Below, one piece after another: positions 2,123-59,104 of a DNA stretch of 64,000 nt; position 1 is the first letter of the stretch, and each line of letters begins with the position of its first letter. The stretch is from Dysidea avara (lineage: Eukaryota > Porifera > Demospongiae > Dictyoceratida > Dysideidae). The notes below the pieces were generated by a model. The model did not search any database and was not told the DNA's origin. It worked only from the letters and a program-made list of their open reading frames with translations. Both the position numbers and the translations under genes were made by a program. The stretch lies in NCBI RefSeq assembly GCF_963678975.1, contig NC_089274.1:33413790-33477789 (forward strand), given 5' to 3'.

Positions 2123-2599
2123 CAGGGACGGATCCAGGAGCTGGCAAGGGGAGGGAGTAAGTTGTAGGTAGTTGGGGAGAACCAGATTCCCTAGTTCAGT
2201 GCTGCATTTTTGAAGCAGCAAATAATCACCTATTAGTAGTGTCTCACTGTTGATTTTTGCCATTTTGGCCTTTTCAGATGGTTGTGAAGTCTTAAAAGCT
2301 GTTTACAAGGCTCTGAATGTCTTAAAGAACAGTAACATGATACTTATTTTTAGAGGCGCTTAGTACGGACGAAGGTGTTGGGTGACAATCTAAGTCAATC
2401 TACAGTTAGTTTAACATTCGTTTGCTTTGGTTTCAGGTGAATTTGTAGTAAAATGTGCATATTTTCATTAGTTGATGAACTGATCTTGGCCTGACATAAA
2501 GTTTAGAAGCTATTTTAATCAGAAGCATGGCTGGCTCCTCCACAAGGTTGGGGGGGGGGGGGCATTTGCCCCAAATTCCCCATCCTGGATCCGTCATTG
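2123..2599. mobile_element. Small nonautonomous DNA transposon, 5-bp target duplication AGATA
   Basis: Ends read CAGGGACGGATCCAGGA and, inverted, CAATGACGGATCCAGGATGG. AGATA stands at 2118-2122 and 2600-2604. The paralogous site in copy B (near 12038) reads TAAGATAATTACC with a single AGATA, which is the empty site. The 477-bp element has no transposase. Terminal sequence and target size resemble 8102-8718. hAT-like is my best guess for the superfamily, although 5 bp is shorter than the usual 8. Confidence 0.85.
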
Positions 2600-2673
2600 A
2601 GATAATTACCTGAATAGAAACCCAAAACGATACCGGTCTATAATTTATACTTGTACATATTATGTCTCTGTAA

Positions 2674-3051
2674 GGCCACTTCAACTAAATTTCTTGTTTC
2701 TCTGACCCGACCGACCCATAAAATTTGTGAATGAAATGTTTTTGTTCATTTTTAAGATCACGTGTTTGATCACATGAGCTTGTGGCGTCGATGTATTGTT
2801 GGTCATCCATATCTGCTATGCTTGGGGCAAGCTTGGTTATTACAAGAAGAGTTGTAAAAGCAGACTATGGATGGACGATTGGTCAATTAAATATACTAAT
2901 CATTATCGAACATTGTAGTTATACGTGTTGCCATAACTTCAGTTTTAAAAATTATTACCATGCACCTATTGTTATTTTATTTATACCTACCTACCAACCC
3001 ACTTTTCAACTAGTTTCAGTCCAAGAAACAAAAGATTTAGTTGAAGTGACC
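2674..3051. mobile_element. Harbinger-type MITE, target duplication TAA
   Basis: The 378-bp insert has terminal inverted repeats GGYCACTTCAACTAAAT... and TAA at 2671-2673 and 3052-3054. The matching position in copy B (12108-12110) has one TAA and no insert. A 3-bp TAA/TTA target duplication is characteristic of PIF/Harbinger elements. There is no coding capacity. Confidence 0.8.
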
Positions 3052-4536
3052 TAAGGGGAGAACGTTGGCAGGCTTTACCCTTTGTGTAACCCTTGTCAGG
3101 GCTCGTCCTTGTCTTTTGACAAAAATCGATAATCTAATCTAATGCACAGACCAGGTTGACACAAACCCAATCTCGGTTAACAATGAATGAACCTAGAATC
3201 GTAATTGTATAACTTACATCAGCACCATAGGGTCACTGATTACAACAAGTTGTATGGAGAAAATTTGTTCTCTGCATTTTTGGCAATCAACGAAAATTTA
3301 ATACCACTTGTTTAATAGTTAAAACAATCAAGGCCCCATTCCAAGCGATCAAGCAAATCTTGATTCGCAGATGGACTAGCTATTGGTAGTGACTACCCCT
3401 TGTAGTCAGTGACCCTGTGGTGCTGATGTAATTATGATTATAGATTCATTGTTACCTGAGGCTGGGTCTGTGCATTGGACTTGCTAGATTATCGATTTTT
3501 GTCAAAAGACAAGGGTTACACAAAAGGCAAAGCCTGCAAACGTTCTCCCCTTACAGAGACATAATATGTACAAGTGCAACTTCAGTGGGGTAGATATTAT
3601 AGACCGGTTTTGTTTTGTTTCATTTCATTTCCGGTTTCTATTTCGGTAATTATAACTTGCCTCTTGTAGCAGTGTCAGTTCATGTGTCAGCAATGTAGTC
3701 AAGTTGGCACAAATTCATGTAAGAGGAAGGTACAAGCTTAAGCATGCTTTCTACAGCTTTTTATAGTCGTGCCAGGAAAAAATGGGTTGAAAAGCTGCCA
3801 ATCTTATAATGAAAATGGACTGCCCGACCATATACTAATGTGCGCCTGAGTCCAGGATGGGAAACAGAATTATTTGGAGTGGCCTTAGGAACAGCACCCC
3901 TAGGATTAGGAACAGTGCAACTATAGCTTTTTATACTCAATCACCCAGTCAGTTTTTGATTGCCGATCTCAGAAATAGCTATGTAGGTTGTAGGGTTGGA
4001 ATTGAAGCACGGTGCTTTAAAACATACATTTTCCCTGAGGCTCTACATTAAAGAAAAATGGCACAATTGAATTAGGGAGCCATATGCATCTCACAGGAAG
4101 AAGTTTGTTACAAACAAAAACAGATATTATTGTCAGGGCTGGAGGTAGGAAAATTAGGCCATTGTAGATGTTTAAATTGCTACTAATATGGGTGATGCCT
4201 TGAGAGAGGAGTTGCTGTGAAGTGCAAAGCATGAGCATCTTCTAAAAGGAGGTCTTGGGGGCATGTTCTCCCAGGAAAATTTTTAAACATTAGAAACTCA
4301 GATATGCAATTTTTAGTGATATTTCACTGGTAGCTGTATGATATGCTTAGCCTTCCTTGTTCTTCGGACTTCTATGCTATATTATACATAGGTAGATTTG
4401 ACATACAGTGGGGCACAGCATGAAACTTGCTATATGCACGGGTATTGTATAGTTCAGATGGGGTCTTGGGGTGCAACTCCCAGAAGTTGCAAGCTAACTC
4501 TCTTACCCCACATTGTGCCATTTTCAAATTGTGTTT

Positions 4537-4655: not shown

Positions 4656-5096
4656 ATTTGAAAATGGCATGATGTGGAATAAGAGAGTTTGCTCAGTAGT
4701 TCTATTGGACGAGTGGGTAGTTGAAGAGAGGAGTGATTTGTACCCATATCTCGTGAATGGTTGTACAAATTTAATGAAATTTGCTGTGTGGCCTATCCTA
4801 GTGTTGTTTTTTTTTGGACAGAAGGCGCCATGGAGCTATATATGCACTTGTAAAAATGCCATTTTCCTTCACTATCACTGTGTGGTGTGCTGGCTTTCTC
4901 AGCCACACAACACACTACTGTGCATCTTGATCTAAGCTTTAAAGTGGTAACTTGCATACCTTGATACTTGTTTTATCGCACAACCCTCTATGTAGTGTGT
5001 ACGTACGTACATATAACTAGTACGCAATTGAACATGTAAATAACAACCAAGTGTACAGAGTATAGCAACAACATGTTTCAATGTAGGAGACACATT

Positions 5097-6458
5097 ATGG
5101 ATGATCTAATAGAAGATGTTGATTTTGAGGATGATCATCAAAAGCCGAAGTTGATTTTGGCACTAGCAAAGATATTACTTCAGTGTGTTACCACATCATT
5201 GTGGCTGATGATATCAGTAGCTTGTCTACCACTGTTCTTGTTAGGTCTCCTCAAATGGGGATTACCCCCTACAATACCAGTTTGGTCCAGATTCTGTAAA
5301 TATTTTACTGCTGTGTTTACAGAAGGCAAGCCGAAAGAAAATATACCATTTACAAATCGAGTGTTGCTGTTTCTGATACTTTTCAATACACTTCTTAAGG
5401 TACCAGTCAATGGAGTGTGCTGGTATATAGATGAACTGTTATATCCTTCATACCACAAGGTTAATATTGATGAGCCAGTGTTCATGATTACAGCATCTCG
5501 TACTGGATCCACCCAGTTATGTCATTATTTGGAGAATGATACTAAAAATTTTATTTCTCCAACAGTAGCAGAAACTGCTTTACCTTACCTTTGGGTGTGG
5601 AAGTTAATAGTGTTAGTTGCTAATTCATTAGGGTTAAAACAAGAGCAAATGCTTAGCTTTACCCTATTTGGTAAAGAAGCTTTAAAACGTCATGAATTTG
5701 TGCTAAATAAATCTGATACATGGGATGGTTTAATTCGATCCTGGCATTTTGGTGTGCTTTCATCATATTTAGGGTGCTCTTTTATGAAATGGGGACTTTC
5801 ACCTATTAAAACAAATGAACCTTTCGATTATGAATTTTGGAAGAGTCATGAACAATTCACACATTGCATACTGAAAAAAGTGATATACTGCCGTGGTAAT
5901 CCTAATCAGCGTATGATAATCAAAGGACACTTTCTGACAATAGCAAAGGTCTTAGAGAAACAGTATCCTAAAGCAAAAATTTTTGTGGTTGTACGACATC
6001 CAGTGGATCGCATCCGCAGTTTGACTAACCTATTAAAAGTAGTTTCATGTGATGGACCATATAAAATGATGTATGGCTTGTTCCCTATGACTTGGAGGGT
6101 CGCTCGTGACTATGCAATTCATACACAAATTCCTTATTGTGAACAAGAAATGTTATTTTACAAAGATCCTGCTGACAACAAGCTTGTTATTCCATTCACT
6201 ATGTATGTGAACAACTTGAGTGCTACTCTTCAACGTATTTACTCATTTTGTAATCTCCCAATACCAGATGATGTAGTGTCTAATGCTATTAGAATACAAA
6301 GCACCACACATGATCGTACAGAGCACCGAGCTAGCTATGATCCTAACTTCAACAAAAGTCTGACCAGTTTAGGAGTCAATGAGACAAAGATAAAAGAGCA
6401 TCTTAGTGAGTACATTGCATGGATAAATACACTTGATGACTTCAAGAAAACAAATTAA
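5097..6458 (+). CDS. Membrane-anchored sulfotransferase-family protein, copy A (ST-A)
   Basis: Likely PAPS-dependent sulfotransferase of the Sulfotransfer_3 type, which moves a sulfuryl group from PAPS to an acceptor; the acceptor is unknown. 453 residues from the ATG at 5097. I chose that ATG because a splice-acceptor-like TTTCAATGTAG lies just upstream and ST-B and ST-C show the same layout; an in-frame ATG at 5073 adds 8 residues. Hydrophobic segments lie at about residues 27-56 and 88-107, predicting an N-terminal membrane anchor. The 5'-phosphosulfate loop is ITASRTGSTQL at about 132 and the 3'-phosphate motif is VVVRHPVDRIRSL at about 300. The loop has Ser where ST-B and ST-C have Pro (APRTGS). 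The coding region is a single exon. A polyadenylation signal AATAAA is at 6713. The C-terminal third is nearly identical to ST-B. Confidence 0.85.
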   Translation: MDDLIEDVDFEDDHQKPKLILALAKILLQCVTTSLWLMISVACLPLFLLGLLKWGLPPTIPVWSRFCKYFTAVFTEGKPKENIPFTNRVLLFLILFNTLLKVPVNGVCWYIDELLYPSYHKVNIDEPVFMITASRTGSTQLCHYLENDTKNFISPTVAETALPYLWVWKLIVLVANSLGLKQEQMLSFTLFGKEALKRHEFVLNKSDTWDGLIRSWHFGVLSSYLGCSFMKWGLSPIKTNEPFDYEFWKSHEQFTHCILKKVIYCRGNPNQRMIIKGHFLTIAKVLEKQYPKAKIFVVVRHPVDRIRSLTNLLKVVSCDGPYKMMYGLFPMTWRVARDYAIHTQIPYCEQEMLFYKDPADNKLVIPFTMYVNNLSATLQRIYSFCNLPIPDDVVSNAIRIQSTTHDRTEHRASYDPNFNKSLTSLGVNETKIKEHLSEYIAWINTLDDFKKTN

Positions 6459-13895: not shown

Positions 13896-14327
13896 GCTAT
13901 TTCACAATGTTGGATAAGAGAGTTTGCTCAGTAGCTCTACCGGACGAGTGGGTAGTTGAAGAGAGGAGTGATTTGTACCCATATCTCGTGAATGGTTGTA
14001 CAAATTTAATGAAATTTGCTGTGTGGCCTATCCTAGTGTTTTTTTAGACAGAAGGCGCCATGGAGCTATATGTGCACATGTAAAAATGCCGTTTCCTGTC
14101 ACTATCACTGTGTGGCGTGCTGGCTTTCTCAGCCGCACAACACACTACTGTGCATCTTGGTCTAAGCTTTAACGTGGTAACTTGCATACCTTGCATACTT
14201 GTTTTATCACACAACCCTCTATGTAGTGTGTACATATGTACATATAGCTAGTACACAATTGAACATGCAAATAACAACCAAGTGTACAGAGTATAGCAAC
14301 AACATGTTTCAATGTAGGAGACACATT

Positions 14328-15659
14328 ATGGATGATCTAATAGAAGATGTTGATTTTGAGGATGATCATCAAAAGCCGAAGTTGATTTTGGCACTAGCAA
14401 AGATTTTACTTCAGTGTGTTACCACATCATTGTGGCTGATGATATCGGTAGCTTGTCTACCACTGTTCTTGTTAGGTCTCCTCAAATGGGAATTACCCCC
14501 TACAATACCAGTTTGGTCCAGATTCTGTAAATATTTTACTGCTGTGTTCACAGAAGGCAAGCCGAAAGACAATGTACCATTCACAAATCGAGTGTTACTG
14601 TTTCTGATATTTTTCGATGTGCTAGTTAAAGTGCCAGTCAATGGAGTGTGCTGGTATATAGATGAGCTGTTATATCCTTCATATCACAAGGCTAATATTG
14701 ATGAGCCAGTGTTCATGATTACAGCACCTCGTACTGGATCCACCCAGTTATGCCATTATTTAGAAGATGATGTTGACAACTTCCTTGTTCCAACGATAGC
14801 TGAAGGATTGTTCCCTTACATCTGGATTTGGAAGTTAGCAGTATCAGTTTTACAAATTAAGCAAGAACGTTTTGGTACCATGTTTGGTACAGAATTAAGA
14901 AAGCGTCATGAATTTTCTTGGGTTAGAGGTGATACTTGGGATGGAATAGCACGTAACTGGCAATTTAGTGTGTGCAATTGTTATTTAGGGTCGGCTTTCA
15001 TGAGGTGGGGTTATTCTTATGCTAGATTAAATGAACCGATAGATGAAGAACTTCTAAAGAGTATTATGCTATTCACGAAATATGTGATTAAGAAAGTAGC
15101 ATACTGTCGTGGCAAGCCCAAACAACATGTGTTACTTAAAGGACACTTTCTATTAATCGCCAAGGCCTTAGAACAACAGTATCCTGATGCTAAATTTGTA
15201 ACAGTCGTACGGAATCCAGCTAATCGTCTATGTAGCTATGTGAACCTGATAAAAGTGACGGTTAATGATTCAGTTTATAAGATGAAGTACGGCTTATTTC
15301 CTACAACCTGGAGGGTTATTCGTGACCATGTCATTCCTACCCAAATAGCTTACTGCGAACAAGAAATGTTATTTTACAAAGATCCTGCTGACAACAAACT
15401 TGTTATTCCATTTACCATGTATGTGAACAACTTGAGTGCTACTCTTCAACGTATTTACTCATTTTGTAATATTCCAATACCAGATGATGTTGTGTCTAAT
15501 GCTATTAGAATACAAAGCACCACACACAATCGTACAGAGCACCAAGCTAGCTATGATCCTAACTTCAACAAAAGTCTGAGGAGTTTAGGAGTGAAGGAAA
15601 ATAAATTACAACAACATCTAGGTGAGTACATTGAATGGATTAACAATTTGGAAGATTAG
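14328..15659 (+). CDS. Membrane-anchored sulfotransferase-family protein, copy B (ST-B)
   Basis: 443 residues from the ATG at 14328, chosen to match ST-A; an in-frame upstream ATG at 14199 would add unsupported sequence across a likely splice acceptor (TTTCAATGTAG). Same two N-terminal hydrophobic segments. The PAPS loop is ITAPRTGSTQL and the 3'-phosphate motif VVRNPANRLCSY. The first 130 residues and the last 110 are almost identical to ST-A. The middle, about residues 140-290, is much more divergent, including the acceptor-side region GEGLFPYIWIWKLA... Single coding exon. Probably arose with ST-A through the segmental duplication. Confidence 0.85.
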   Translation: MDDLIEDVDFEDDHQKPKLILALAKILLQCVTTSLWLMISVACLPLFLLGLLKWELPPTIPVWSRFCKYFTAVFTEGKPKDNVPFTNRVLLFLIFFDVLVKVPVNGVCWYIDELLYPSYHKANIDEPVFMITAPRTGSTQLCHYLEDDVDNFLVPTIAEGLFPYIWIWKLAVSVLQIKQERFGTMFGTELRKRHEFSWVRGDTWDGIARNWQFSVCNCYLGSAFMRWGYSYARLNEPIDEELLKSIMLFTKYVIKKVAYCRGKPKQHVLLKGHFLLIAKALEQQYPDAKFVTVVRNPANRLCSYVNLIKVTVNDSVYKMKYGLFPTTWRVIRDHVIPTQIAYCEQEMLFYKDPADNKLVIPFTMYVNNLSATLQRIYSFCNIPIPDDVVSNAIRIQSTTHNRTEHQASYDPNFNKSLRSLGVKENKLQQHLGEYIEWINNLED

Positions 15660-31300: not shown

Positions 31301-31445
31301 TACTAGAAGTTAATAAACAGCCAAATAGTGATAATGCTGGCACAAAAAAATGTTAGAGTTTGTAGTTGGTGTAACAAAAATACATTGACATAACAAAGTA
31401 TTTTGTATAGTTGTGGTTTACTATTTTATCTGTTTACAGGAAGCT

Positions 31446-32789
31446 ATGAATGGCCTAGTAGCGGAGAATGTTGTGCTTGAAGATGATCATCATCGTCCAA
31501 AGTTCATTCCAACCTTGTGGAATATTTTACTTTGTTGTGTTACCACATCATTGTGGCTGATCATATCAGTAGCTTGTCTACCACTGTTCTTGTTAGGTCT
31601 CCTCATATGGGGATTATCCCCTACAATACCAGTTCCATCAACATTTTGGAATTACTTTATTGCAACTTTTAAACAGGGCAAGCTAGAAGAAAATATACCA
31701 TTCACAAACAGAGTTTTACTGCTTTTGATCTATTGTGATATTCTAGTCAAAGTGCCAGTCAATGGAGTGTGCTGGTATATAGATGAGCTGTTATACCCTT
31801 CATACCACAAGGTTAATATTGATGAGCCGGTGTTCATGATTACAGCACCTCGTACTGGATCCAGCCAGTTATGTCAGTACTTAGAAGATGATTATGAAAA
31901 CATCATTGCTCCTACAGTTGGTGAAGGATTGTTCCCTTACATTTGGATGTGGAAAATATTAGTACCAGTTATAAAAACATTAGGCAAAGAACATTGTTTA
32001 ATACGACATTTTGATGTAGTTGGAACAGAAGCTAAAAGGCAACACAATTCATCGTTATTTAAAAGTGCTACATTTGATGACTTGGCTAGGTCCTGGCATT
32101 TTGAGATATACAGTTGGTACCTGGGTTCATCGTTCTTAATATGGGCATTTTCCTATGTTGAATTAGGAGATAAAGACTACCAAAGAAATTTTGTGCCATT
32201 CACTAATTGTCTGATGAAGAAGATTGTGTACTATCGTGGTAAACCTAAACAGCGTGTGTTGCTTAAAGGACACTTTTTGTTGAATGCTAGGAAATTTGAA
32301 CAACAGTATCCCACAGCCAAGTTCTTTGTATCACTACGAAATCCACTGGATCGAATGTGCAGTTACGCTAACTTGGAAAAGGTTCTTGTTGATGATGGAC
32401 CATATAAGATAAAGTATGGCTTGTTCCCTACTACCTGGAGGGTTATCCGTGACTATGTGATTTATACACAGATTCCTTACTGCGAACAAGAAATGTTATT
32501 TTACAAAGATCCTGCCAACAACAAGCTTGTTATTCCATTCACCATGTATGTGAATAACTTGAGTGCTACTCTTCAGTGTATATACTCATTTTGTAATATT
32601 CCAATACCAGATGATGTTGTGTCTAGTGCTATTAGATTACAAAACACTACACACAATTATAGGTATAAAAGAAAGCAAATAGATTGTAGATACAGAAGAA
32701 CTCTGACTAGTCTGGGTGTGAATGAAGCAGAGTTAAGAAAGAGGCTCAGTGAATACATTGAGTGGATAAGCAAGTTCGAAGACAATTAA
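31446..32789 (+). CDS. Membrane-anchored sulfotransferase-family protein, copy C (ST-C)
   Basis: 447 residues from the ATG at 31446, which follows a clean acceptor-like TCTGTTTACAG. PAPS loop ITAPRTGSSQL; 3'-phosphate motif SLRNPLDRMCSY. The N-terminal hydrophobic block (TTSLWLIISVACLPLFLLGL) and the C-terminal block around YCEQEMLFYKDPANNKLVIP are nearly the same as in ST-A and ST-B even in DNA sequence. The centre differs strongly, and the extreme C-terminus (NYRYKRKQIDCRYRRTLTSL) is its own. It lacks the upstream repeats shared by A and B, so it is an older member of the family. Acceptor unknown. Confidence 0.85.
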   Translation: MNGLVAENVVLEDDHHRPKFIPTLWNILLCCVTTSLWLIISVACLPLFLLGLLIWGLSPTIPVPSTFWNYFIATFKQGKLEENIPFTNRVLLLLIYCDILVKVPVNGVCWYIDELLYPSYHKVNIDEPVFMITAPRTGSSQLCQYLEDDYENIIAPTVGEGLFPYIWMWKILVPVIKTLGKEHCLIRHFDVVGTEAKRQHNSSLFKSATFDDLARSWHFEIYSWYLGSSFLIWAFSYVELGDKDYQRNFVPFTNCLMKKIVYYRGKPKQRVLLKGHFLLNARKFEQQYPTAKFFVSLRNPLDRMCSYANLEKVLVDDGPYKIKYGLFPTTWRVIRDYVIYTQIPYCEQEMLFYKDPANNKLVIPFTMYVNNLSATLQCIYSFCNIPIPDDVVSSAIRLQNTTHNYRYKRKQIDCRYRRTLTSLGVNEAELRKRLSEYIEWISKFEDN

Positions 32790-33425: not shown

Positions 33426-35929
33426 TACCTTTGTGTCCTGTTTCTTTTTGCTTGTGGTATGAAGGTGTCAAGGAACTGTGTCAAATGAATCTTTGTGTTG
33501 CCCATCACATAAAATAAAAAGTACCATAGGAGCAAAGTTTCAATGGGCAAAATTTTCACAGTTGAGAGCAATCACCCTTATTGGTAAAGTATGGCGGCAC
33601 CCACTGAAATGTGCTAAGCTGCTTTACACTGCTGCGTGTGAGTGTGAGAGAGCTAGCTGTACATCACACACACTTAATGCACAAATCATGAGCTCATCCT
33701 ACAGATTATTCATGTGGGTTACACTCAAGTATAGTGCAATATGGGACCATATTATTGGGAAAGGGCTCCAGTGCACAAGGGAGGAGATTCTTGAAATACG
33801 TGCTTGAATAGCACCACTTTATTTTAAAGATGTCATCAACACTTTAATGGAATGTTAATTGCAAATTTCCCCCCCTTGAAATTACCCACTATACGGCACT
33901 GTGATAAAAATTGATAAATAAACGTACAAATACAAGAAATTTCATGTAGTGACCACATCATTACATTCCTGAATATCACTGGCAATCTCAGTGTTCTTGG
34001 CTGTTTGATTCATAGGTCGCACACGATTAAATTTATGACCTAAATCAAAAACAAAAGACATATGGCAAAATGTACATAGCACATAGTGTGGAGGAGTGTT
34101 TTGGGAAATTCCAATCATGCAAAACCTGAAGTGCTATGCACAACAAAGCTATACCCCAGTGATATAAATCAAACTTCTTGTAGCCTTTTTTTTTCTAAGG
34201 TTACTTGTAACAAAAAGCAATGAAAAATCAGCAGCACTAGAAATAGTAGTGAATCACCAATACACAGATTTGGGTTTTATTTGATAAAAGCTACAAACGC
34301 CCAATACCAACTGGACACTTTGTATTATGTCATTTAACCAATAGTGCTAATAGAGTGTAGTTGAGCAAAATCCATGAAAGAAGTCGGCAAGTACAGCAGT
34401 AAGTGACAAAGGAAAATTCATTGAAGCTATAAATTATGATTATTCCTCTGATCGATGGTCAAAAAAGCCAGCCAGTAACACTTTACACTGAGATTATATT
34501 TCAGTTTCACACACCAATGGTATTATATTTCAGTTTCACACACCAATGGTATTATATTTCAGTTTCACACACCAATGGTATTATATTTCAGTTTCACACA
34601 CCAATGGTAGAGGATTGTTGTTAGATAAAGGGGATACAAAGCATGTGCATTTGTGTGCATGCACAAAAATCTTTATACACTGTAAAATCACCACATGCTT
34701 CATAACTATGGTCTTCATAACTATGGTCTTCATAGTGTGGTCGTCTTGTGTTTTGTCTATGCATATGCTGGCAATTTTATAAGAATTTCATGCATATGCA
34801 TGCTCGACTTCACCTTTGACAATAGCATGCATTCACTGCGTGATCTGAGCCATTTGGTAATTAGCAAATGTGTATCAACCATTATTGGAATACTTGTGAA
34901 TAATGCCTGTGTACAATACAAAGTAACAGTATTGTATCGGCATTGGCCATTCACCACCTAAAATGTATCAGTATTGGATCAACCGGTAAAAAGTGGTATT
35001 GGTGAACTACCATATATACAGTAAGTAATTTAGTAAAAATGGTATATTGCGAACCTCAAATTGTAACATTCATTACAGATTTATAGACAACAAAATACAT
35101 CTACATGCATTACGTACCTGTACAGTTTAGCAATTCTGATCTTGTTTTTATTCTACAGCAAACTTTGCAAAATTTGTACTCACAAGTTTGCCCCTATGCA
35201 TATGTACATATATACAATGTAATAGACCGACACATATTTAAGCATGTATTGGCCTCTACACATTGATTTGTATGTGTTACTTTATAATACATGGCCATAC
35301 ATGAACACCAGGTTTAACAACCTGCTTTATATGATGAAAAACTTCTCTACAGTAGTCGACTACGACTACGACTACGCACACTACCTTGAGAGTGGCTATT
35401 AGGATTGAAACTAGGTCAATACTGCTAACCTGGCTGATCCATATAGTGATCCGGATGGGACCCAAATCTGACCAAAACAAAGATTTGTAACACATCTGCC
35501 TTATTAAAAAATTAACCGTGCGACTGAATGCTACCTATTGCTGAAAAGTGACTTGGACATTCCACTTTGTTTTCAGCTGTCTTCCACCTGTTATAGAGGA
35601 ATGCAACAAACTAACAGTTGGTGCTAGTTGTTGCTACTCATCGCTTAAATCAAGTAAGCTTAACATATGAATCTCAATTAGCAGCCAATTCTTTAATAAG
35701 ACCACCCCCTCATAGTGACCATGTCAAATAAATGCTAATGCATCAACACTAAGGCCATAACTTTAATCACAAAAGTAACCCTACTAACAAGGCTTTGTCA
35801 TGGTTTCTCCCACTATGAAGACAGTAAAGCAAAACGCATACAGTTGTGTATTGCGTGAATATGCACTTGGCAGAAGGATGTGTCATGCTGCCAAAGACAC
35901 TGTCACATACATTGTAGCCACATGAAAAC
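33426..35929. other. Intergenic, no gene recognised
   Basis: AT-rich. Contains the 29-bp tandem array at 34493-34611. The 109-codon ORF at 33478 shows no motif that I recognise. Confidence 0.4.
34493..34611. repeat. 29-bp tandem repeat, four copies
   Basis: Unit begins ATTATATTTCAGTTTCACAC and ends ACCAATGGT. The four copies are practically identical, so the array is young. Confidence 0.9.
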
Positions 35930-36271: not shown

Positions 36272-36791
36272 ATAAAAAGCACAAAATACTGACATGTGTC
36301 TTACCCTTGGATTGCGGTGACACTTCATGCACACTTGCCATTTTCTCTCTAAGAAAAGTACACACAATAATGTATTGATATAAAAGTACAGTATGCTGCA
36401 CATCCATCTTCAAAAAATACTCAAAGCAACTAGGGCATATAAATACATACATTAGTGATGCACCGATACCACTTTTTCACTACCAATCTGATACCGATAC
36501 ATTCGAGGCCGGAAATGGCCGATACCGATACTTTGCTCCACAAGCAAGAAACAACTGCTAATCTCATCAACTGCAGTTTGCTGGTTTTGTGGCTATTGAA
36601 TACCGTATAGCAGGTTATTTTCGAAGAACAAAATTTCGAACAAGAGCTGAAAATTTAAATTTCGGAGAATTTAAATTCGAACAACTACAATATTACGAAA
36701 ATAAATTCATCAATCTTCGTATAGATCTGGTTCACGTGTACTACATCACGTGTATGCAGCTAGCTCAGTGCAATTGAGTCTTCACGCCGCA

Positions 36792-37955
36792 ATGTCTTTC
36801 ACAGTGCAGTCGGTGATACGAGGATATCACGAATACAAGGATATGTGGATTGCTGTGATTGGTGAGGAATTGTCGTGTAAGCGAGAACCTACCAACAGAG
36901 AAGATCGATTTGCTGTAGCAGTTACCAAAGATTCTAGTATTGTGGGGCACATACCTAGGAAAATATCAGCTATTTGTTCCTTGTTTCTGTGGCAGTCTGG
37001 CAAGATCAGCTGTTGTGTCACTGGGCCAAGACAGTACTCTAGTGATTTACCACAAGGGGGACTCGAAATTCCCTGCACGCTAAAATTTACTCGTGCCAAA
37101 GACCTCGATCACCTGGAAAAAGTTAAGAAGCTAATCGAACATGCTCTTTCCTTCGTGATTGACAAATTTAGTTATCATGGGGAATTTCTTGATAGAGTAA
37201 AGAGAGAAGTCACAGATGATAGCTGTGAAGAAGCCTCAGAAGAAGCACTAATCGGTGATGGTGGTGATAGTAATAACAATGGCAATGATTTGGTGATAAA
37301 TGATGATGAGTCTGTTTGCAGTGCCAGTAACAATGTGGTTGACTTAACAATGGGCAGTGATGCACCTAGTGTGTTTCCAAGCGATGAAAACGATGCAGAC
37401 TGGTGTAGATTTGGAGGCATTCGTTTAACACAGCAAAACAAGTACGATATTCTTAGGGGAGACAAATTAAATGATCTGGTCATCAACTTTGTTCAAAAGT
37501 TGATGAAGAAACAGTTTCCATTTGTGAAGGGGTTACAGTCTACATTACTGCAAAGCAAGCCACTGAAACCATCAGATAACAGTTTTTCTTCCCGTTTACA
37601 AGTTATCCATTGCCATAATGATCACTGGATGGTTGCTTCGACTATGCACAGTGGTCCAACTGCAAAGGTGCAAATTTATGATTCACTGTTTGACACCATG
37701 GATAGTCAAACAAAATTTGTTATACCTAATCTCTTTGGATCAGCTGCTAACCCTGAAATAATAGTTGTTCCTAGGCAAGCTGGCATCAAAGATTGTGGTG
37801 TTTTTGCATTAGCTAATCTGATAGCTCTTTGTTTCAGAATGAATCCTGCCGATACCCATTTTAAGCAAGATTTAATGAGACTACACCTTGTTCAGTGCAT
37901 GGAAAGTGGTACTTGTACACCATTTCCATTGACGAAAGAACTTCCACATTATTAG
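36792..37955 (+). CDS. HIRAN domain + Ulp1-type (C48) cysteine protease, carried by the pogo-like element
   Basis: 387 residues from the ATG at 36792 (MSFTVQSV), preferred over an in-frame ATG at 36750 because the HIRAN fold begins here. Residues 2-95 resemble HIRAN domains: KREPTNREDRFAVAV...IVGHIPRKIS. HIRAN domains of HLTF-type proteins bind DNA ends. An acidic, Asn/Ser-rich linker covers about 130-210. Residues 215-370 are a Ulp1/SENP-like peptidase with His278 (NDHW), Asp297 (IYDSL), Gln329 and Cys335 (QAGIKDCGVFA); the Gln-to-Cys spacing of 6 matches yeast Ulp1. All four residues are present, so deSUMOylase or related isopeptidase activity is possible but not shown. It converges on the transposase gene. 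Whether it helps transposition or blocks host SUMO-based silencing is inference. Confidence 0.8.
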   Translation: MSFTVQSVIRGYHEYKDMWIAVIGEELSCKREPTNREDRFAVAVTKDSSIVGHIPRKISAICSLFLWQSGKISCCVTGPRQYSSDLPQGGLEIPCTLKFTRAKDLDHLEKVKKLIEHALSFVIDKFSYHGEFLDRVKREVTDDSCEEASEEALIGDGGDSNNNGNDLVINDDESVCSASNNVVDLTMGSDAPSVFPSDENDADWCRFGGIRLTQQNKYDILRGDKLNDLVINFVQKLMKKQFPFVKGLQSTLLQSKPLKPSDNSFSSRLQVIHCHNDHWMVASTMHSGPTAKVQIYDSLFDTMDSQTKFVIPNLFGSAANPEIIVVPRQAGIKDCGVFALANLIALCFRMNPADTHFKQDLMRLHLVQCMESGTCTPFPLTKELPHY

Positions 37956-38456
37956 GCAACTTTCTGATGGTGTAAACCACTTGATATTGTTATTATTGTG
38001 ATTTCATCTACATTTTTGTAAAATAAGTTTATCTTAATTATAGTACCAAAGTATGCGTGCAGAGACAATTATATGATTTAAAGACTATGCCATAATCAAT
38101 AAGCATGCCATAATCAAGTCAAGTGTAATGCACTGTCAGACAATTATAGTGACAGAAGGTAAAGGTTGCATTTGCCTTATCTTAGTTGCTAGGAGTGGTA
38201 CATTCTTACAGTGCAAATGTATTGTAGGAGAGGAGATGAATACACTAGGCTTATAATTAATTGCAAAAATTTCCCTTGTACATGTAGTCAGTGATCAGTT
38301 AATTATAAGAGACAGTTCAAATAATAAACTTGACACTAGAATTAACAATATGTGGGTATAAAACAGTCAGGCATATACAGGTATTTATACACACACTCAG
38401 GTTGTAAAAGAGTTTAGCTATAGTCTATAACGCAAAGGTACATCATTTGTAAAAAA
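37956..38456. other. Spacer between the two convergent transposon genes
   Basis: AT-rich. AATAAA-like words near 38322 could serve the plus-strand gene, and TTATTATT runs the minus-strand gene. No ORF recognised. Confidence 0.4.
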
Positions 38457-39984
38457 CTACAAAACTTTGCTAATTATATCAGTTATGCCTGCAGCTTTGA
38501 AGCTGTTCTTCACCATGGAATCTTTTCCCTTGATGTAATTGTAGGCACCAACAAGCCAACCAGCTCCCAGCGGTTTCATTGTGGACATTCTCAGATCAAC
38601 AGGCACGACATTGACCGATTGACCATAGCCTTTCTTGACCTCCTCTGAATACCACTTTTGAAATTTGTCTCGTAAAAAATCCTTTACTGGTTTGTTTATG
38701 CTCAGGTCCATAGGTTGAAGGCGGTCTGTACAATTTGGAGGAACTTTTACAACTTGTATGTTGTTGGAATCTAACATGTTGTAAACGTCATCTGTTACTT
38801 GGCCTTTAAATTCATCGAAAATGACTAATGCAGGTTTTCCATGTGCTTTGCACTTCTCTGAGACATATTGCAGAATAATCTTTTCTATGTACTCTTTTGT
38901 CTTCTGCTCGTTAGACCAATGGTTTGGTGTGAAAGTCACATTCCAGTCTTGGGGAAACACAAATCTGGGTAGACATGCTGATGTCTTGCCTTGATATATT
39001 AGCTGCAATGGAAGGAGCTCACCACTTAGTGCAGCACAAAGCACCACAGTGATTTGCCGCTTGTCATTGACCCCTACTGCTTTGACCCTCTTTGATCCTT
39101 TAGCCTCCATTGTCCACTGCGAGCCTGGCACCACATTGATGCCAGTATGGTCCCAATTTAGAATGAGATCAGATGGCACATCTTCCATGTCAATGACAGT
39201 TTTTATATCTAGGAGGAACTGTTCTTTTAGTTCTTTAAAATGCGAAGGCTCAACTTTAGCTGATGTCGTAACTTTTCTTTTCACAAAATTTATTCGTTGA
39301 TGTATTGATTTAGCCCAAACACTGGTAAGCTCAATTGGTCCACCGTTTTCCTTCAACAGACCTTTATTAACTTTGTTTACTATTGCTTCACCACTAGCTA
39401 TAGTAACAGCAGTAGTAACAATCCCCTTCTTCTCACGAACCTCCTTGATGTAACTTATCACCTGTCGATCTAAATTTTCACCCAGCAGAGGTGGTCTTCC
39501 TCTTTTCATCTGAGGCAAACTTTTAACTTCAACATGCTTCTTCTTGCTACCACTCTCCTTTAGCAGACGCTTCATCTCAGCCACATATTTCACTTTCCAT
39601 GTACTGACGGAGCTATCTTTAATCTCTGTATGAAATTCTCTTGCATACCTTCGAATAGCTGCTTGATTCCAAAGGCGAAAGCATGCTTTGCAATCTGCGC
39701 CTGTTCAACAGGCGTTAACCTTACGTAAAAACCTCCGGCTTGCATTCAACTGGGTGTTCACGAGTGTGGTTCCTTGAAGAACAAGCCTTGGAATATGCAT
39801 CGTTGGCGTCTCGTATAGCTTCAGGTGGTACAACTGCAGACAAGGGGCCATTTGGATCTGGCAGTTGTTTATCTTGACGTTTTACAACAACTCCTGCAAT
39901 GGGCTTGAAGTAGCAATATAGACTATTCATCACAGCAACTACAATCACAGCATTAAAATAGCTACAACACGGCTCCTCACACAA
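38457..39984 (-). pseudogene. pogo/Tigger/jerky-type DDE transposase, core open, N-terminus frameshifted
   Basis: The 379-codon core (39593 to 38457) is uninterrupted and shows RGRPPLLGENLD, then the catalytic acids in NWDHTG (residue 148), VIFDEFKG (260) and TDRLQPMDLSINKP (probably 296), typical of the DDE_1 family. Upstream, the expected N-terminal part is spread over other frames: KRQDKQLPDPNGPL...CSSRNHTREHP at 39721-39984, then GGFYVRLTPVEQAQIAKHAF, then RLWNQAAIRRYAREFHTEIK, which joins the core frame near 39670. That means about two frameshifts, near 39735 and near 39665-39690. An intron cannot explain them because the pieces abut. Cut-and-paste function is therefore probably lost in this copy. 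Confidence 0.8.
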
Positions 39985-40490
39985 AGATATGGTGACATCA
40001 GCTCTCAGCGAGGCTCTCAGTCACGGGCTAAAATGTTAGCCTTTAACACGTGATCGAAAACGTAATCTTTAACAACATCATAATACTGATTCGCCTACGC
40101 ATTCTCTATAACAAAACTTTCGTAGAATTTATTTTCGAAGGGAATACGCCCTGCGAAATATTCGAAAATAAATTCCTTTCAAAAATAACCCGCTATACGG
40201 TATAATAGTTTGGGCTTCAATGAATCTTATTTCGTGGCTTTCTTCAGTTTCCACTGTACTAATAATGCTAGTAGCTGGCTTCCTTTAAGGAATTCATAGC
40301 TTATATCAACTTTTTCTCAACTCTGTTTGATGCGCTATATACACCACCATCTTGAAAAGTAATTAAAAGACGTCATTTAAAGTATCGGTTGGTATCGGGA
40401 ATTTATAGCTTTACCGATACAAGTCCGATACTGCCAAAATAGGGTTGATATCGATACTAGTATCAGTATCGATGCATCACTAACGTACAT

Positions 40491-51287: not shown

Positions 51288-51878
51288 TCTCTATCGGAAA
51301 CAATTCTGGTCCGTATAACTCCGGAGAGTTTTCTATAAGAGGGTGGGGTTCGGTTCGTTAGCACCTATAATTAGCTCGGAGTAGTGTGCATAGGTTATAT
51401 TCGGTTCTAGAAACACTCTTCACCTTGAGGTGAGTTAAATGTGCAGAAGTAGTTTACTGCAGCAGCGTGTCGCGTTGATTTGAAATCGGTTGCCGAGATG
51501 CCAAGTCGCGTTTCCAATTAATATTTGTTGCGGTGTCTTTTTTTGCACTTAGCAATTATTAATCAGTTCTATTGTTGCGTGTGTGCTTTGTGTATACTCA
51601 GTTTACATTCCGTGAATGTTTCTTGATACCAGAAAGGTCAAATATCTGGGTTATGTAAATTTCGAGGTTAATAGTTTGTTTGTGGTACTTAATATTGACA
51701 CCCATTGTACTTATATGCAAATATTTCCTTGATTACAAGCTTACCAAGAAACACCTTAGTTTGTTTATTAACATTTAGATTTAGTAAACATAAGACACAC
51801 ACATTTTAAGTAGTTTTTCTATAAATACCATTGTGTTTGTGTGCTACTTAATGCTGGTTTGGTGTTAGATCACAAGCA
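51288..51878. promoter_or_regulatory. Divergent intergenic region, DUS1L / FMO
   Basis: 590 bp separate the two start codons on opposite strands, so the region should hold both promoters. No convincing TATA box; ordinary AT-rich sequence near the FMO side. Confidence 0.4.
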
Positions 51879-53579
51879 ATGTCAGGGTCTGGAGGATTTG
51901 AACATGACGTGACAATTATCGGTGCAGGTTGGTCAGGACTGTTAGCCTGCAAGCACATGTTGGAAGAGGGGCTGACTGTTGTGGTGCTGGAGAGAAGAGC
52001 AACAATTGGTGGGGTGTGGCAGTATATTGATGATCCCAATGAAACCAGTGTCATGAGATCCACTCAGTGTACATCGTCGATAACGGTCACAGAGATGTCA
52101 GATTTCCCTATGCCAGATGACTTTGATACCTTCCCAAGTCACTCACAGATAACACGCTACCTTGATTCCTACGCTGATCATTTCAATCTCTGGCCCCATG
52201 TCCATCTTAACACAAAAGTTGACCAGGTAGAAAAAGAAAAAAACATCTGGAAGGTCCATACTATAGGTGGCCAAATCTACACCAGCAGATATCTAGTGGT
52301 ATGCACTGGTATCTATGAGAGGGCCAATATGGAACTGCAGTCAACATTGTTTAGTAACTATACCGGATCATTATACCATTCAAAGGTGATCAAGTACCCT
52401 CTATCCAAGCACAATGGTGATGACATATTGATAGTTGGAGGTGGTGAAACAGCCAGTGACATTGTCAGTGAATGGTATGATCATACAAACTGTATCTACT
52501 GGAGTATACCACGTGGACAACATTTCTTTCGTAAGTATGCTAAGATTCTGCCTTGGGGAAGGCCACAGCCATTGGATAAAGCTTCTTCAAGAGCCCTCAC
52601 GACTATTGCACCATATCACAAATCAAAACCAGGCCTGAGTTGGATTTGCAAGTGGACATCAAATGGCTCACTGTTAGCCTATCAGGGCCACGGAATCCCA
52701 GAATGGAAAAATGATTCACCTTTCTTTCACTTTGTCATCAACAAAAATGGTAAAGTATTGGATTTAATCAACTACAAGAAGGTGGTTCCAAAAGGTGCTA
52801 TCAAAAGCTGTCAAGAAAGAACAGTAGAATTTGCCGATGGTACAAGCAAAGAGTTTGATGCAATCATTATGTGCACAGGGTATGACTCTAGCTATTTCCC
52901 ATTTCTTCCTGGAAAATACCACCAAAATAAAACTTTGCGAGATCGCTACAAGTTTGTTTTTGATGTAGAAGATCCTTCAATTGCTTTCATAGGCTATGTG
53001 AGGCCTGTAGTTGGTGCTATACCAAGCATCGCTGAAATGCAGTCAAGATGGGTATCTAAGGTATTCGCCAAAACCATCCCTTTTAAACCATTAGAAAATC
53101 GACAGGATGATGTGAAACAAGATGCTGAATTCTGGGAGAACTATTTCAAGGGATCTTCACAGAGACTAGAAGGCTTGGTGGAAGGGTTTATTTACATTGA
53201 CCAAATTGCACGCTTGGCTGGAGTTTTCCCTGATTTCAAATCACTTTTATTTAGAAATCCCAAAGGATGGTTTACAGCTGTTTTTGCACCATACAATGGT
53301 GCCACATATCGCTTGAATGAACCGAAACATGAAGCTCAAGCTATTCAGACAATGTCAAAACACCGCAAACAAACAACAAATCCACTACACCTTCTGCTGA
53401 TAGTATTTATGAGAGTCAGTGGTATTGACAGGACAATAGTACTACTGGAAAATGTCAAGTACAGTATCCAAACATCTTGGTGGTGGCCTCATGTTAGGGA
53501 CCTACGAATTGTAAGGGCATTAAACTGGGTCTGGTGTCTACCTAAGAGACTTTTGTTTGACTCTAAATCAACAACATAA
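51879..53579 (+). CDS. Flavin-containing monooxygenase (FMO family), single exon
   Basis: FAD- and NADPH-dependent enzyme that oxygenates nucleophilic N or S atoms of small molecules. 566 residues, close to the usual 530-560. FAD Rossmann motif IIGAGWSG at 13-20 with LERRATIGGVW after it, FMO signature YTGSLYHSKVIKY at 161-173 (the consensus begins with Phe), NADPH motif IVGGGETASD at 185-194 and the late MCTGYDSSYF block near 340. The C-terminus is mildly hydrophobic (LHLLLIVFM near 505) but has no clear anchor. The ATG at 51879 is the first in frame and is followed quickly by the Rossmann fold. No intron, unlike DUS1L and eIF3b on either side. Substrate cannot be told from sequence. Confidence 0.9.
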   Translation: MSGSGGFEHDVTIIGAGWSGLLACKHMLEEGLTVVVLERRATIGGVWQYIDDPNETSVMRSTQCTSSITVTEMSDFPMPDDFDTFPSHSQITRYLDSYADHFNLWPHVHLNTKVDQVEKEKNIWKVHTIGGQIYTSRYLVVCTGIYERANMELQSTLFSNYTGSLYHSKVIKYPLSKHNGDDILIVGGGETASDIVSEWYDHTNCIYWSIPRGQHFFRKYAKILPWGRPQPLDKASSRALTTIAPYHKSKPGLSWICKWTSNGSLLAYQGHGIPEWKNDSPFFHFVINKNGKVLDLINYKKVVPKGAIKSCQERTVEFADGTSKEFDAIIMCTGYDSSYFPFLPGKYHQNKTLRDRYKFVFDVEDPSIAFIGYVRPVVGAIPSIAEMQSRWVSKVFAKTIPFKPLENRQDDVKQDAEFWENYFKGSSQRLEGLVEGFIYIDQIARLAGVFPDFKSLLFRNPKGWFTAVFAPYNGATYRLNEPKHEAQAIQTMSKHRKQTTNPLHLLLIVFMRVSGIDRTIVLLENVKYSIQTSWWWPHVRDLRIVRALNWVWCLPKRLLFDSKSTT

Positions 53580-58562: not shown

Positions 58563-58826
58563 TGTGAAAGAAGTAGGGCTGTAGCTGTAGCCACTTTTCA
58601 ACTACGCTTGCCAGAATGCATCACGCAGGCTGTGAAAGAAGTAAGGCCGTAGCTGTAGCCACTTTTCCGCTATGCTTGCCTGAACGCATCAGGTAGGCTG
58701 TGAAAGAAGTAGGGCCACAGCTGTAGCCACCTTTCCACTACGCTTGCCAGAATGCATCGGGCAGGCTGTGAAAGAAGTAAGGCTGTAGCTGCAGCCACTT
58801 TTCTGCTACACTTGCCTGGACGCATC

Positions 58827-58830
<4 letters not shown>
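58563..58830. repeat. 68-bp minisatellite, four units in an ABAB pattern
   Basis: Units begin GTGAAAGAAGTAGGG or GTGAAAGAAGTAAGG. Units 1 and 3 share AGTAGGG and CCAGAATGCATC. Units 2 and 4 share AGTAAGG and CTG(A/G)ACGCATCAGG. This is a two-unit (136-bp) higher-order repeat. Confidence 0.85.
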
Positions 58831-59085
<255 letters not shown>

Positions 59086-59104
59086 CAGTCAAATTCCATT
59101 AAAT

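Follow-up and report, generated by a model that had tools for sequence, protein, structure and literature searches.

Is the HIRAN-Ulp1 gene that lies beside a pogo-like transposase in the sponge Dysidea avara a standing part of a transposon lineage, and what use might a transposon have for such a protein? The question arises from a 64,000-nt stretch of forward-strand sequence (GCF_963678975.1, contig NC_089274.1, positions 33,413,790-33,477,789), hereafter the window, in which an initial annotation described a pogo-like element with a DDE_1 transposase and a HIRAN-Ulp1 gene, nested inside a hAT miniature inverted-repeat transposable element (MITE), and proposed a distinct lineage with an accessory protease. 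Family searches covered the window's own genome (551 Mb, 108 contigs). They show that the two genes move and diverge together as a conserved pair in a cut-and-paste lineage, a variant of the pogo kind with a HIRAN-Ulp1 accessory gene, whose identity and ends we regard as close to certain. For the whole statement, in which this TA-targeting lineage with its conserved HIRAN-Ulp1 pair would also gain a modifier-stripping role at cut DNA, PCNA or the transposase, we set a probability of roughly 0.6.

A two-gene element and its relatives in the sponge genome

The element occupies positions 36603-40200 of the window, 3,598 bp without the TA dinucleotides that were claimed, and are read, on its left (36601-36602) and right (40201-40202). 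Its left terminal inverted repeat, CCGTATAGCAGGTTATTTTCGAA (36603-36625, plus strand), is answered at the right by CCGTATAGCGGGTTATTTTTGAA (40178-40200, minus strand), located by an inverted-repeat and end-pattern search; taken as 36600-36625 and 40178-40203, the arms are 92% complementary over 26 nt. With up to three mismatches, the end pattern occurs three times in the window against 0.03 expected by chance, the occurrences being the two element ends and one three-mismatch place at 33878. Two convergent genes lie between the ends. The HIRAN-Ulp1 gene (36792-37955, plus strand) is open and encodes 387 amino acids counted from the first ATG. On the minus strand, the main frame of the DDE_1 transposase, with its DDD catalytic residues, lies at 38457-39704 (PF03184, 2.2e-15), and the N-terminus, which begins MNSLYCYFKP and resembles a PCNA box, lies in another frame at 39721-39930. 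Because the relative L043 has both parts in a single open reading frame (ORF), the window transposase is judged to be frameshifted. The two convergent genes of the initial annotation are thus both present with Pfam domains, the transposase not as one open frame, and the window copy is probably dead.

The locus lists behind the following counts are lower bounds for both genes. In the accessory-protein search, 100 of 1,597 first-look candidates were scored and gave 161 matches, with 150 rows used for counts; a second transposase query gave 104 rows, ten short N-terminal rows being omitted (their loci are present through longer rows), and from a third only seven places, new by eye, were taken in. 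Two accessory queries found at least 127 HIRAN-Ulp1 loci, down to about 35% identity, and two transposase queries at least 117 clade transposase loci. From the lists alone, a HIRAN or HIRAN-Ulp1 match lies within 3.5 kb, in convergent orientation, at 89 of the 117 transposase loci, and 77 of the 127 accessory loci have a listed transposase. Shuffled positions gave a mean of 0.07 pairs and a maximum of 1 per 101, against 74 observed, which rules out chance neighbourhood; together with the number of loci, these figures refute a one-off capture or accidental proximity at the window locus, and leave that explanation a negligible probability. Searched with the HIRAN-Ulp1 protein, the genome yields many copies of about 3 kb with both convergent genes and like ends, and the proposal of a distinct lineage with an accessory protease is upheld by this multicopy pairing, the common ends and the number of HIRAN-Ulp1 loci.

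Pairing was also examined locus by locus. Thirty loci cut out by the accessory query represent 28 separate places (two of which, L024 and L027, have common flanks, 4.15 kb at 98.7%, and are copies of one duplicated stretch rather than two insertions), and a clade transposase is present in the cut-out locus at 27 of the 28. The remaining place, L012, has a piece of transposase at a distance of 6.3 kb, which an insertion would fit. Eight of the 28 transposases left unpaired by the lists were inspected: seven have both accessory parts and one, L070, has the protease part. One of the seven places new from the third query was paired by list; of two others, L092 has both accessory parts, and the stretch fetched for L091 contains the protease part. 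Four of the 50 list-unpaired accessory loci were inspected, and all four have a transposase or a piece of one. In all, a partner gene or part was found at 14 of the 14 inspected loci that the lists had left unpaired.

The ends are equally consistent. Both ends, of the form TA-CCGTA...TACGG-TA, were found in 18 of 26 regions examined, 2.91-3.60 kb apart and with TA at both ends in all 18; in the other eight (one of them L044), one end was unreadable in the stretch searched. Where subfamilies are compared, similarity between copies stops at TACCGTA, within three bases. For the sister element L025, empty sites reading GGT-TA-ATGG occur in four repeat copies (two at L039, one each at L051 and L062), and the occupied site reads GGT-TA-CCGTATG...CGTACGG-TA-ATGG, which shows a clean TA duplication, as in Tc1/mariner and pogo elements. 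Three copies, L037, L038 and L044, are 99.8-99.9% alike at different places, indicating recent movement. Both genes are open in eight elements of five subfamilies (L023 and L045; L025; L029; L034 and L036; L037 and L038), a count that leaves out L044 and for which start codons were outside the criteria. Among close relatives of the window copy, those read (L040-L043) have one or both genes broken.

The initial annotation had also pointed to the inner terminus as a probe. Its 19-base end has 221 exact copies in the genome, and none of the eight that were cut out is a two-gene element. Seven of the eight (L001, L002 and L004-L008) are TA-flanked MITEs of about 530-570 bp with ends like those of the inner element, and the eighth is a single end. 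Perhaps these MITEs were moved by the clade transposase.

The transposase and its HIRAN-Ulp1 partner

Domain scans of family transposases, made without row L043, found PF03184 in all five proteins scanned in addition to the window's. The motifs N[WF]D, [FY]D and LQP[LM]D recur across the family with invariant Asp, and 35 residues, counted by eye in the window protein, separate the last two catalytic Asp (DD35D). Among the N-terminal DNA-binding domains of pogo transposases that were sought (HTH_Tnp_Tc5, CENP-B_N, HTH_psq and BrkDBD), HTH_Tnp_Tc5 was matched below threshold in two of the five (0.00095 and 0.0072) and none was matched in the other three, four of the five being cut N-terminally by the locus end. 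The label pogo-like is carried by the TA duplication, the size, DDE_1 and DD35D, the DNA-binding domain being recognised only marginally. Open transposase frames across the family span 468-557 amino acids; the frame of L025 has no early Met. A PCNA-box-like core, [ILM]xx[FY][FY], stands at the first Met in eight of the 11 subfamilies with a readable transposase N-terminus, against a background of 42 in 6,538 windows of the same transposases (0.6%).

In the window's accessory protein, a HIRAN domain covers residues 23-74 of 387 (36858-37013, plus strand; Pfam PF08797, 3.9e-07, 30.2 bits against a cut-off of 24.7), and a core of the Ulp1/C48 type follows at 37623-37796, with His at 37623, Asp at 37680 and a Gln..Cys pair whose Cys is at 37794. 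For the gene that was annotated as HIRAN-Ulp1, PF08797 lies above its cut-off and the catalytic signature is kept, the C48 match of the window protein itself being sub-threshold. Across the family, open accessory frames span 378-458 amino acids. HIRAN was found in all eight members scanned, each at E 0.01 or better, and C48 in five of the eight, the best at 6.7e-06; the ElaD/SseL and RickCE profiles each matched one member. Against the PDB, the family profile found 6dg4, a Ulp1-like SUMO protease, at 0.0063. One comparison of accessory proteins was made without rows L033 and L010. The signature HW / YD / Q..CG is present in 14 of 15 accessory proteins from 11 subfamilies, of which 13 matched the pattern and L020 was recognised by eye; the sole exception, L019, has lost its frame before the catalytic Cys. 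Up to E 5, a HIRAN profile built from 11 family sequences matched nothing in the PDB but HLTF, in five distinct sequences at E 0.03-0.04. Invariant in all 11 are an Asn opposite the second Asn of the HLTF pair (which we count as N91), the next Asp, and a Gly-His. In collections without eukaryote genomes, the window protein found no relative in viral_contigs or genome_contigs, and the family alignment found none in viral_contigs.

A variant gene structure was seen at L077 (G000:C14:7124800-7129800), where both element ends are present and the HIRAN and C48 parts occupy two overlapping frames at 2283-3450. An open frame of 166-168 amino acids like that of L077 occurs at several other HIRAN matches as well. 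The arrangement suggests an intron in this accessory subfamily.

The HIRAN-Ulp1 pairing is not supported as a general feature of DDE_1 elements. The best 150 of 835 candidates from a DDE_1 family search were scored; none overlaps the 101 first-query transposase matches, and within 5 kb there is an accessory locus for one of them and a HIRAN match for six. Three of these six were inspected. L074 (G000:C11:14795000-14798400) is a decayed clade relative, which means that the set of 150 does not entirely exclude the clade, and DDE_1 matches like it occur at two more places on C11. L073 (G000:C2:6700000-6704800) and L075 (G000:C8:18178700-18182700) are Tigger-like: their transposases have HTH_Tnp_Tc5, CENP-B_N and DDE_1, and each is accompanied by a lone, divergent HIRAN gene. 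The transposase of L073 is a single frame of 579 amino acids, its HIRAN scores 2.2e-08 by Pfam, and both genes lie between TA-CAGTGGAACCTGT ends; L075 has a transposase split over two frames, a HIRAN frame with a stop, and GAACCTCTCTATTCC repeat ends. It thus seems that HIRAN was acquired by more than one lineage of the pogo type, or that it predates their split. Among 100 HIRAN family matches, 38 are accessory loci, 11 lie near a clade transposase, six near another DDE_1 and 45 are unassigned; HIRAN as such is not confined to clade elements, the lists being incomplete. A 212-amino-acid HIRAN ORF at L076 (G000:C2:9426000-9430000) recurs at the same length at five genome places, with no listed DDE_1 nearby. 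It is possible, though we think it rather doubtful, that HIRAN is a recurrent accessory module of the pogo superfamily, fused to a protease once and alone elsewhere, which would recognise 3'-OH ends arising from cleavage or at replication forks.

Nesting in an older MITE and other features of the window

The outer MITE is split by the inner element into halves at 36453-36602 and 40203-40482, about 430 bp together (36453-40482 over all). Its terminal inverted repeat has arms of 22 nt at 91%, and its end, with at most one mismatch, gives 438 matches in the genome where a control gave none. The 8-bp flanks ACATACAT (36445-36452) and ACGTACAT (40483-40490), a putative target duplication, are equal in seven of eight letters and so near-identical, as had been claimed. 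Nine uninterrupted copies, chosen for exact and closely spaced ends, are 445-485 bp long, and among them the 8-bp duplication is perfect in six, 7/8 in one, 6/8 in one and 2/8 in one. Because the joined flanks of the window align to all nine across the junction, at 87-91% identity, it is confirmed that the pogo-like element sits within an older MITE; about 8 bp of the other copies are absent at the insertion point, and the empty site is not exact. The nesting and the multicopy nature of the MITE therefore stand, and its assignment as hAT, which we take from the 8-bp duplication and from end sequences typical of hAT elements, is presumptive. An older relic of the same MITE family lies outside the element at 34398-35004, in two blastn pieces of 76-80%, and an end-like match with three mismatches at 34247-34263. 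Inside the relic stretch, a 29-bp unit is repeated four times in perfect copies (34493-34609).

Elsewhere in the window are three related ORFs for sulfotransferases, all pointing the same way (5040-6458, 14181-15659 and 31389-32789; Sulfotransfer_3, the third below cut-off), an FMO-like flavin monooxygenase ORF (51852-53579), and about 66 copies of CAGG at 58826-59088, whose minus strand gives an open frame of CLPA repeats.

Candidate roles and comparison with known systems

Excision of the Tc1/mariner type produces 3' overhangs 2-3 nt long, and both PCNA and silencing proteins carry SUMO. On the reading that we favour, cleavage by the transposase would expose short 3'-OH strands or, alternatively, the element would work at replication forks, where there are 3' ends and PCNA. 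The HIRAN domain would bind 3' ends, as in HLTF, and its docking would place a SUMO- or ubiquitin-removing protease on cut DNA, PCNA or the bound transposase; stripping of modifiers might then promote transposition by aiding turnover of the complex, repair, or evasion of SUMO-dependent control. A Ulp1-like, modifier-removing activity of the accessory protein is probable, while a role directed at 3' ends is more tentative, at somewhat less than even odds. The combination points to an element equipped with a tool of its own for acting on host proteins as it moves. To our knowledge the role of Ulp1 proteases on transposons is unproven. Throughout this large and varied clade, such a protease is linked to a domain whose ligand is known (3'-OH DNA ends) and to a superfamily of transposases for which contact with PCNA is established, which turns the function of a transposon-borne protease into a concrete and testable guess, with several elements that have both genes open.

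The evidence of HIRAN and C48 domains would also fit an anti-silencing factor that takes SUMO off silencing proteins of chromatin or of small-RNA pathways where the element itself lies, with HIRAN as a mere anchor. SUMO-dependent silencing of transposons occurs in animals, and the occurrence of Ulp1 on unrelated transposons, namely Ginger1 and Mutator (excerpt of PMC2836005) and oomycete Cryptons (excerpt of PMC3212892), would suit such a role. A generic anchor, however, would not need the residues of HLTF that bind 3' ends, which are invariant here, and the Tigger-like elements have HIRAN without a protease, so that HIRAN may have a use of its own; we consider this explanation unlikely. Less likely still is a protease that acts on the element's own transposase, in processing or dosage, as a regulator in cis rather than one directed at the host. 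The two genes do diverge in step (r 0.94 for pairwise identities over 14 elements including near-identical copies; Mantel r 0.70, p 0.0006 over 10 subfamilies), and their trees agree on L019 as the window's sister subfamily and are otherwise poorly resolved, but joint inheritance alone would give the same co-divergence, and clan CE enzymes usually cut the isopeptide bonds of small modifiers.

The accessory gene might instead be a passenger, captured once, of no benefit and decaying in most copies. The broken relatives of the window copy agree with this, as does a ratio of nonsynonymous to synonymous divergence (dN/dS) of 0.54-0.74 for the accessory gene in the window subfamily, where the transposase has 0.49. 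At an older divergence, however, its dN/dS is 0.19 at dS of about 1 (L026 and L024, each compared with L035), and that of the transposase is 0.15 (L026 against L035, 203 codons, dS 0.68). This shows purifying selection on both genes at a single divergence within the lineage, and the claim does not extend to the window copy. Judged by median end branches (1.07 for the accessory gene, 0.55 for the transposase), the accessory gene evolves at about double the pace of its partner. The retention of catalytic residues across identities as low as about 35% and the eight elements with both genes open speak further against a passenger, which the selection and pairing data largely refute and which we hold to be very improbable.

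Several points weigh against the favoured reading of a DNA-end-directed, modifier-removing partner. Peptidase_C48 (PF02902) scores 0.018 in the window protein, below the Pfam cut-off, a YopJ acetyltransferase profile matches two of the eight members scanned, and the protein could act on ubiquitin or carry out acetyl transfer. At E 0.03, the match of the HIRAN profile to HLTF is weak, and an AlphaFold2 model of the window protein alone had a predicted local distance difference test score of 33.6 and was not used. The PCNA-box-like core lacks the canonical Gln and fails in three of the 11 subfamilies, and the eight that have it are kin rather than independent. With regard to pairing, the partner check covered only 8 of the 28, 3 of the 7 and 4 of the 50 loci concerned, some of the other 46 being already paired, and the decayed L074, the single case that speaks against a pairing of both domains, has HIRAN and transposase pieces in which the protease part was not found. 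The two comparisons behind the accessory dN/dS of 0.19 have one row in common, and recent copies, with few changes, range over 0.38-1.99 for the accessory gene (0.14-1.11 for the transposase), which does not support selection on the accessory gene since insertion.

Set beside the pogo superfamily (Tigger, Passer, pogoR, Fot, Lemi and Mover; excerpt of PMC7386202), the clade likewise duplicates TA, has short inverted ends and a DDE_1 domain with 35 residues between the second and third of its three Asp, and measures 2.9-3.6 kb; the family range of 2.91-3.60 kb lies within the total of 1.2-5.2 kb applied here for pogo elements. It differs in adding a conserved second, convergent HIRAN-Ulp1 gene and in matching HTH_Tnp_Tc5 only below threshold. 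Pogo elements are described in the same excerpt as having one or two ORFs that encode transposases, and binding of the pogo transposase to PCNA is mediated by a PCNA box, which Tigger and Lemi1 retain (excerpt of PMC5371812). The words HIRAN and Ulp1 are absent from the main texts of two pogo surveys, supplements aside, and literature searches judged from their listings, with Repbase and Dfam outside the search, found no published description of a pogo-type element with HIRAN-Ulp1. The Tigger-like L073 and L075 of the same genome resemble the clade in joining HIRAN to a pogo-superfamily transposase, in L073 with both genes between one pair of ends.

Ulp1 domains have been reported in Ginger1 and Mutator elements (PMC2836005) and in oomycete Crypton elements (PMC3212892), in the portions of these papers on which we draw. 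Ginger1 is, like the present element, a DNA transposon with a Ulp1 domain, but the domain forms the C-terminus of an integrase-like transposase, and HIRAN is not mentioned in that portion of PMC2836005. Mutator-like elements and oomycete Cryptons likewise have a mobile-element protease of the Ulp1 type, but with other recombinases, and the same portions of PMC2836005 and PMC3212892 do not mention HIRAN for them.

For the HIRAN domain itself the nearest known system is HLTF, in which it binds 3'-OH ends or a dinucleotide and requires N90/N91 (excerpts of PMC4666394 and PMC11237066); the conserved Asn-x-x-Asp and Gly-His are alike in the two, the structural match in the PDB being weak. The partners differ: HLTF joins HIRAN to a helicase and a ubiquitin ligase, whereas the clade joins it to an enzyme of the modifier-removing type. 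If HIRAN is indeed a recurrent pogo module that recognises 3'-OH ends, the HIRAN-Ulp1 lineage would be the first transposon known to encode a modifier-removing enzyme directed at DNA ends, and a mirror image of HLTF.

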